From the NCBI GenBank assembly GCA_016743995.1, contig JADGFG010000018.1:1-37364 (forward strand): DNA of 37,364 nt, given 5' to 3'. The notes beneath the pieces were generated by a model that made no database searches, was not told the DNA's origin, and was given only the letters and a program-made list of their open reading frames with translations. The stretch is from Kangiellaceae bacterium. GTDB lineage: Bacteria; Pseudomonadota; Gammaproteobacteria; Enterobacterales; Kangiellaceae. The translations under genes and the position numbers were made by a program. Below are positions 306 through 24,829 of this stretch, in pieces (positions within the stretch are counted from its first letter, which is position 1; each line of letters starts with the position of its first letter).

Positions 306-324
306 ACTCTACAGGCATATATTC

Positions 325-369
325 AAACTCCCTGGAAATCCTGGTTTCAGGGAGTTTGGGTATTTTTAA
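325..369 (+). terminator. Rho-independent terminator after the ligase gene
   Basis: A perfect 10-bp stem (AAACTCCCTG at 325-334 pairing with CAGGGAGTTT at 348-357) has a 13-nt loop and is followed by GGGTATTTTTAATTTT. The T tract is on the plus-strand side only, so it ends the ligase transcript. For leuB, arriving from the other side, it is at best a weak stop. Confidence 0.85.
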
Positions 370-426
370 TTTTCAAATCAAATAATTTGCAAACAACTGG
401 TTCAGTTGAATATGCCAGAAGCCGGG

Positions 427-3571: not shown

Positions 3572-3644
3572 AAAAAAACCCTGTAGTGTTACTACAGGGT
3601 TTTTTATTCTTAAATACAAAAATCCCCGTCAATAATTGACAAGG
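3572..3644 (-). promoter_or_regulatory. Leucine attenuator: protector, antiterminator and terminator hairpins
   Basis: Read on the minus strand, three alternative pairings are visible. (a) Protector: CCUUGUCAA (3644-3636) pairs with UUGACGGGG (3632-3624) around a UUA loop, a 9-bp helix with two G-U pairs. (b) Antiterminator: GGG plus UUUUU (3626-3618) pairs with AAAAA plus CCC (3605-3597) with one A-A mismatch. (c) Terminator: ACCCUGUAGU (3600-3591) pairs with ACUACAGGGU (3587-3578), extended by A-U pairs and followed by seven Us, G and four Us. The protector's 5' arm lies inside the Leu codons. A ribosome stalled there would free GGGG, form the antiterminator and allow leuCDB transcription. 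This is the classical E. coli leu/his mechanism, inferred here from sequence. Confidence 0.85.
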
Positions 3645-3679
3645 AGGAGTAACAAACTATTTTGAATTATTTGCGTCAT
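3629..3679 (-). CDS. leuL: leu operon leader peptide
   Basis: A 16-residue peptide, MTQIIQNSLLLLLVNY, starts at ATG 3677-3679 and stops at TGA 3629-3631. Residues 9-13 are five consecutive leucines encoded TTG TTA CTC CTC CTT. Only one codon is repeated (CTC, twice). A Leu run directly before an intrinsic terminator and upstream of leuC is the hallmark of a leucine attenuation leader, comparable in role to E. coli LeuL but unrelated in sequence outside the Leu run. The Shine-Dalgarno sequence is weak. A second tiny frame, ATGATGTTAGTGAACATATGA, overlaps its start. The peptide itself probably has no function beyond sensing charged tRNA-Leu. Confidence 0.85.
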   Translation of the reverse strand: MTQIIQNSLLLLLVNY

Positions 3680-24400: not shown

Positions 24401-24829
24401 AAGGTGGGTCAACCTATAAGCCGGATTCTGTCCAGGACAGTCATTCATCTTGGCATCAGATCACCCTGATGCTCATGCGGCCTACCCGGTTCCAACGCGA
24501 GCCACGCCTTGAAACTTCCAGAGGAAGTTTACAGGAACCCTATTTGGCCTTGCTTTGAGTGGGGTTTACCCTGCCACTAATGTTACCATTAGCGCGGTGC
24601 GCTCTTACCGACACCTTTTCACCCTTACCGACCAGACGATAAATCGTTCCGGCAGGCGGTTTATTTTCTGCGGCACTTTCCGTAGGCTTTCGCCTCCCAG
24701 GCGTTACCTGGCACTCTGCTCTATAAAGTCCGGACTTTCCTCCATTTGCGTCTCTCTATGACCAGCTTTACCTTTACAGGAAAAATCGATGATAAAAATC
24801 AACAAACAGCGACTGCCCAGTCAACCCAC
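24401..24829 (-). ncRNA. rnpB: RNase P RNA (bacterial class A)
   Basis: Catalytic RNA that matures tRNA 5' ends. Conserved blocks are clear on the minus strand: GGAGGAAAGTCCGGAC, GTGCCAGGTAACGCCTGG, GGTAAGAGCGCACCGCG, AGCAAGGCCAAATAGG, AACCGGGTAGGC and AGAATCCGGCTTATAGG. Ends were set by the P1 helix: GUGGGUUGAC (24829-24820) pairs with GUUGACCCAC (24413-24404). P2 pairs GGGCAGUC with GACUGUCC. The RNA is therefore about 429 nt, longer than E. coli's 377. Part of the excess is an enlarged P3 (24742-24809). Location next to mraZ is shared with Pseudomonas. Confidence 0.95.

Follow-up and report, generated by a model that had tools for sequence, protein, structure and literature searches.

A predicted leucine attenuator upstream of leuCDB in a Kangiellaceae bacterium and serial attenuators in its relatives

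What controls a leucine operon that begins with leuC and has no leuA? Such an operon, leuC-leuD-leuB, lies in the 37,364-nucleotide stretch of a marine Kangiellaceae genome analyzed here (the window), and an initial annotation had read the sequence before leuC as a complete leucine attenuator. Judging from sequence and an energy model, we consider it very probable that leuCDB is under ribosome-mediated leucine transcription attenuation. Support comes from the sequence, its alternative folds, the effect of ribosome position in the energy model, conservation, gene context, and a second attenuator at leuA. The element is a conserved switch of a known kind, and its gene context is unusual and probably derived.

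The central elements of the annotation were recovered in the window (Table 1). The 16-codon leader with five consecutive Leu codons has the sequence and coordinates it had been given; the ORF (MTQIIQNSLLLLLVNY) reads ATG ACG CAA ATA ATT CAA AAT AGT TTG TTA CTC CTC CTT GTC AAT TAT TGA. The proposed 9-bp protector was found as hairpin 1:2, whose length (9 or 10 bp) varies with the choice of stretch for folding; its 5' arm lies within the Leu codons and overlaps the last of them, and the stop codon and GGGG are on its 3' arm. The terminator stretch (3613-3572) folds at -19.4 kcal/mol, and leuC starts ∼125 nt past the terminator stem. One-base overlaps join leuC to leuD and leuD to leuB. As the next features past leuB are a palindrome (324-358) and an ORF of convergent orientation that carries a DNA-ligase OB domain, leuB is the end of the operon, which, as had been noted, lacks leuA. 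The candidate promoter matches the sigma-70 consensus at 10 of 12 positions and, with two such sites found against 2.6 expected, is not significant alone. Two further observations concern the neighborhood. The palindrome (window 315-380) belongs to a dispersed repeat family with 55 matches in the genome, some of them both strands of one place. A 6-codon ORF, MMLVNI (3696-3676, minus strand), was also read by eye; its TGA overlaps the leader start as ATGA, an overlap that may reflect translational coupling or chance.

Table 1. Coordinates of the leucine leader, its operon, and the serial attenuators of sister genomes
Feature	Coordinates	Strand	Remarks
Leader peptide ORF MTQIIQNSLLLLLVNY	3679-3629	-	16 codons + TGA
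Regulatory codons, 5 consecutive Leu (TTG TTA CTC CTC CTT, codons 9-13)	3655-3641	-	Leu-rich run kept in relatives' leaders
Hairpin 1:2 (protector/anti-antiterminator)	3645-3623	-	Folding and alignment
Alternative antiterminator 2:3	3635-3589	-	GGGG and U run against A run and CCC, extended
Intrinsic terminator hairpin 3:4, then U run	3605-3573	-	15 bp, 3-nt loop
Candidate sigma-70 promoter TTGACA-N17-TAGATT	3801-3773	-	93 nt upstream of leader ATG
leuC, isopropylmalate isomerase large subunit	3448-2054	-	PF00330; first structural gene
leuD, isopropylmalate isomerase small subunit	2054-1473	-	PF00694
leuB, 3-isopropylmalate dehydrogenase	1473-427	-	PF00180; last operon gene
M23 peptidase gene	4748-3813	-	PF01551; upstream neighbor of leader
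Serial Leu attenuator pairs	L156:1916-2260, L143:924-1229, L144:777-1126, L139:1129-1447		Four sister genomes

The leader was compared with shuffled and simulated sequences. A 121-nt leader region (-33.8 kcal/mol) had a z of -4.6 and a 91-nt region a z of -6.0, and in both cases 0/200 shuffles were equally stable. Both window strands were scanned for short ORFs (8 to 40 codons) with at least four consecutive Leu and a downstream terminator; the sole match was the leader ORF, reported twice owing to an inner TTG start, and none of 60 simulated windows contained such a match. When the threshold was relaxed to at least three Leu, 1 in 60 simulated windows did. A looser pattern, CTY x3 ... GGG ... 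AACCC, matched only the window leader in the whole genome; its reversed control also matched once, and taken alone this result is weak.

A simpler explanation for the hairpin could be that it is merely the factor-independent terminator of the M23 peptidase gene, with the leuC promoter lying in 3572-3449 and the Leu-rich ORF being fortuitous. The terminator stands ∼207 nt past the M23 stop codon, and inspection of the sequence upstream of the leader ATG revealed no obvious Shine-Dalgarno sequence, both of which fit this explanation. Against it, the Leu run, GGGG, and CCC are kept in relatives, even in G002, which has no M23 gene upstream; the run of at least four Leu with a terminator did not arise in the 60 simulated windows; and a promoter scan found no minus-strand consensus promoter between the terminator and leuC. 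We therefore regard an M23 terminator with a chance ORF as very unlikely.

The alternative pairing proposed for an attenuator, GGGG and U5 with A5-CCC, was examined by folding nascent RNA with a ribosome footprint assumed to end 10 nt past the A-site codon. If the RNA is made to 3588, so that arm 4 is absent, and the A site is on any of the Leu codons (9 to 13), the antiterminator folds at -12.7 to -13.9 kcal/mol. In this state, the partner of GGGG (3627-3624) is 3596-3599 and that of the U run is the A run, and further pairs extend the helix. When the A site is on codon 15, codon 16, or the stop codon, the pairing of GGGG with 3596-3599 is gone, and with arm 4 present and the ribosome at codons 15 to 17 the terminator forms. 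Protector, antiterminator, and terminator, the three mutually exclusive structures that had been described, are all present on folding. In the energy model, the antiterminator is exclusive with the terminator, and the protector overlaps the regulatory codons. The antiterminator is likewise the preferred fold of RNA that stops short of arm 4 and carries no ribosome (-17.4). Wherever the ribosome is placed, full-length RNA at equilibrium prefers the terminator (-19.4 to -33.8), and the switch must therefore be kinetic and depend on timing. Classical attenuators are likewise timing dependent.

We propose the following mechanism from the sequence and its predicted folds. When Leu-tRNA is scarce, the ribosome would stall within the Leu run (codons 9 to 13) and cover arm 1; arm 2 (GACGGGGAUUUUU) would then pair with arm 3 while arm 4 is still to be synthesized, and this pairing would preempt the terminator and allow leuCDB to be transcribed. 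With ample leucine, the ribosome would reach the stop codon and cover arm 2, and the terminator would form. Transcription start, leader translation, stalling, termination, and the leucine response at the leuCDB leader are all predictions of this scheme.

Could the same terminator instead serve a ligand- or tRNA-binding riboswitch or a T-box that controls leuC? A terminator and an alternative hairpin are present, as such an element would have. At gathering score, though, no T-box or riboswitch family matched anywhere in the window, where the only Rfam match was the bacterial class A RNase P RNA; other matches, at E up to 10, fell far below their gathering scores and were weak and terminator driven. 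What is conserved in the leader, moreover, is a Leu-rich frame with pairing arms, and we find a riboswitch or T-box here barely conceivable. The RNase P RNA itself (RF00010, 307 bits) lies at 24401-24828 on the minus strand. The Rfam model of the known leucine leader (RF00512, Leu_leader) did not match the window at gathering score. Across the whole genome, it returned 22 places at E up to 10, none on the window contig and none over the cutoff; one weak place (L161) proved on reading to be a tRNA with a terminator.

A covariance model (R1) was built from the attenuator 1 sequences of five sister genomes with the window left out. In a blind search, the window element scored 56.8 bits (E of 1.6e-10 in the window, the best site there) and was the best match in the 4.68-Mb genome (E of 2.1e-8). 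The second genome-wide match at E up to 0.01 was an ILV-rich attenuator (C313) before the genome's second acetolactate-synthase gene. Among 197 genomes of the order, 19 had R1 matches at E up to 0.001; of the 19 places, the one in the window reached 56.8 bits, against 34 to 41 for the remainder. A leader scan of 17 R1-match stretches (L199-L215), run together with the family stretches L186-L198, gave an ILV-type leader in L199 and nothing else convincing among the 17.

Covariation was counted on a seven-sequence alignment fitted to the structure, which held the five sisters, the window, and G011 of genus g2; the remaining three g2 sequences did not reach the cut set for the alignment. Pairing holds in 97.7% of its cells (43 to 61% in slid controls), and both-sided changes occur in 5/19 pairs (shuffles as high, 1/500), amounting to 7 such cells (0/500). 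The seven-pair core of hairpin 1:2 is paired in 98.0% of cells, and 4 pairs of the twelve-pair terminator core changed on both sides. The antiterminator pairing 2:3 holds in 91.4% of cells; its covariation is not significant (shuffles as high, 84/500), and 5 of its 10 pairs are invariant. The five sisters alone, aligned with MAFFT without the window, were paired in 96.8% of cells, with 2 double-change pairs, which is not significant (shuffles as high, 78/500), and 3 double-change cells (25/500). MAFFT alignments A1 and A2, which include the window, misplace one hairpin-loop codon, and A1, A2, A3, and A5 are outside all counts. Conservation with compensatory changes is thus shown for helices 1:2 and 3:4 on the structure-fitted alignment. 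Of the conserved Leu runs and compensatory changes that had been anticipated in relatives' leaders, the Leu runs are kept and the changes are found in the protector and the terminator, but the antiterminator does not covary significantly.

In several relatives (L088, L090, L143, L157, and L139), promoters of the form TTGACS-N17-TANATT have a -10 box ending 6 to 7 nt before the leader start, compared with 93 nt in the window. The short spacing suggests that leader-peptide mRNAs are leaderless in these relatives, the window excepted. This difference in promoter-leader distance, together with the window's 56.8 bits against 89 to 104 for the five sisters that built R1, could mean that the attenuator is real but a relic, of little weight since leuA moved away. 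Such decay sits poorly with pairing arms, Leu codons, stop codon, and U run that are all intact and with compensatory changes that occur in the window sequence itself, and we judge a relic to be extremely unlikely.

The gene context of the presumed working attenuator is best seen from the window's genus. The window genome (G000) was placed in the same genus as G001, and in 5/6 same-genus genomes (G001-G004 and G006) leuA lies directly upstream of leuC; attenuator 1, a Leu leader of the same architecture, precedes leuA in 5/5 of these. An M23 peptidase gene stands before attenuator 1 in four of the five (G001, G003, G004, and G006) as it does in the window, and was not seen upstream of attenuator 1 in G002. 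The shared neighbor places the window leader at the same locus as the sisters' attenuator 1. Because the sisters have leuA between attenuator(s) and leuC, the leuC-first arrangement of the window is probably derived. The sixth genome, G005, has a divergent leuC (52% identity) with an in-frame TGA, and no credible leader was found at that locus.

The suggestion that leuA might have its own attenuator elsewhere held true. The sole leuA of the genome (520 aa; L245:4331-5893) lies inside contig C38 and has its own Leu leader MNPILSLILLPFLLLFWWGGI (L114:3105-3170, minus strand), with a terminator of -16.0 and an antiterminator of -19.7. Absence of leuA through a contig end is ruled out, since the convergent ORF follows leuB and leuA is interior to another contig. 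C38 is unlikely to be a contaminant: its GC content is similar (0.391 versus 0.411), and the genome holds no other leuA or zwf; the zwf on C38, with 44 to 49% identity to genomes of three genera, is not diagnostic. The LeuA of the window genome carries the allosteric domain PF08502. The LeuA of Aliikangiella coralliicola, whose genus NCBI places in Pleioneaceae, is 404 aa and lacks PF08502, and those of the other four sisters are similarly short (403 to 434 aa). In a 17-row tree, where the program warned of meeting long branches for LeuA, the window genome's LeuA groups with g2 LeuA (100/100), apart from a clade of the five sister LeuA (100/100). For LeuC, the window genome sits close to the sisters inside the g1+g2 clade, without a resolved branching order. 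The simplest account is that the locus lost attenuator 2 and the short leuA, and that a g2-type leuA was gained or kept elsewhere. No second R1 site or remnant of attenuator 2 was found between the window terminator and leuC by model search or by eye.

Genus g2 offers a second arrangement. Among its genomes with leuC (G008-G012; G007 has no leuC match of its own), 4/5 have one attenuator followed by a small ORF and leuC; none was seen in G010, where the upstream sequence is only 432 nt. In 5/5, a same-strand leuA, broken or cut in G012 and G011, lies 1.7 to 2.1 kb past leuC. This gap has room for leuD and leuB, so the g2 order is probably leuC-D-B-A. The small ORF, present in 5/5 g2 genomes with leuC, has no Pfam match and is absent from g1 at E up to 1e-3. 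In L088, L090, L091, and L092 it ends in DVFEFEPxGFMSxGRW. The short LeuA proteins of the sisters have similar tails (ATQYLGGRRW and HFMETRRW), and the end of the small ORF is perhaps a docking tail. A leader scan of 110 leuC loci gave credible leaders only in L003-L005, L083, L084, L088, L090, and L092, with several genomes represented twice, and none in 77 named loci outside these groups (L006-L082) or 20 loci of other genera (L093-L112); such zeros do not prove absence, as the Leu criterion missed the G012 leader, found by eye, and some upstream flanks were short. A reverse-strand match in L086 lies within a gene and was judged spurious.

Four of the five sisters (G001, G002, G004, and G006) have two Leu attenuators in series before leuA-leuC. 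In each, the second leader (e.g., MKIQTINLTLLLSLLLLYRRRRAIVC) has its own terminator and antiterminator, and 123 to 164 nt separate the first stop codon from the second start. G003 (L157) has a second Leu-rich ORF, for which no terminator was found. A serial layout also occurs in the Kangiella-like group g5 upstream of an operon with a second LeuA-type gene, which we infer to be ilv-leuA: two ILV-rich leaders with terminators were present in 9/9 leader regions examined (L193, L194, and L234-L240). The promoter scan found no consensus promoter in the 123- to 164-nt gap; the same scan found none upstream of the g5 pairs either, which makes the lack of a promoter between attenuators weak evidence. 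A single ILV-rich leader precedes an acetolactate-synthase gene in six same-genus genomes, including that of the window (L228-L233).

These arrangements lead us to propose that leuA-leuC was ancestrally preceded by a tandem pair, of which the window element is probably attenuator 1; the window's species would have lost attenuator 2 and the short leuA, and would be served from elsewhere by an allosteric-type leuA that has an attenuator of its own. A broader proposal, which we hold as likely to fail as to stand, is that BCAA attenuators are modular and serial in this lineage, that a series may steepen or deepen control where LeuA lacks an allosteric domain, and that the window species dismantled its pair into leuCDB and an allosteric-type LeuA with one attenuator each. 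The window element extends a textbook mechanism to a lineage missed by Rfam's model. It suggests that the attenuator itself, and not the genes alone, is a unit kept, lost, or duplicated in operon rearrangement. Of more interest than the window element are its surroundings: relatives have attenuators in pairs, and in this genome regulation is split between leuA and leuCDB. The serial pairs are natural material on what a second attenuator adds, and they bear on whether transcriptional control replaces lost enzyme feedback. Titles and abstracts yielded no published description of amino-acid leader-peptide attenuators arranged in series upstream of leu or ilv operons, most of the subscription literature being outside the scope of that search.

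In E. coli and Salmonella, leuABCD is preceded by leuL, a leader ORF with a run of Leu codons, followed by mutually exclusive hairpins and an intrinsic terminator (RF00512). The window likewise has a Leu-run leader ORF, exclusive hairpins, a terminator, and a leu operon downstream. Its leader differs from leuL in being shorter, of other sequence, and without an RF00512 match, and its operon differs from leuABCD in beginning with leuC, leuA being unlinked. The trpL of Sinorhizobium is leaderless; several relatives' leader ORFs similarly seem to begin at or next to the transcription start, unlike the spacing in the window. In the Shewanella leuA operon, the attenuator comprises a terminator, an antiterminator, and an anti-antiterminator that overlaps the leader ORF, and compensatory changes are seen among species (PMC2659441). 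The window shares this architecture, but the Shewanella element precedes leuA and the window's precedes leuC; the word "tandem" does not occur in the main text of that paper. Tandem attenuators, with two leader ORFs in one long leader, are described for Salmonella mgtCBR (PMC3641672). The leu leaders of the sisters and the Kangiella-like ilv leaders share this two-ORF layout. Unlike the sisters' operons, mgtCBR is not amino-acid biosynthetic, and the window attenuator, for its part, is single.
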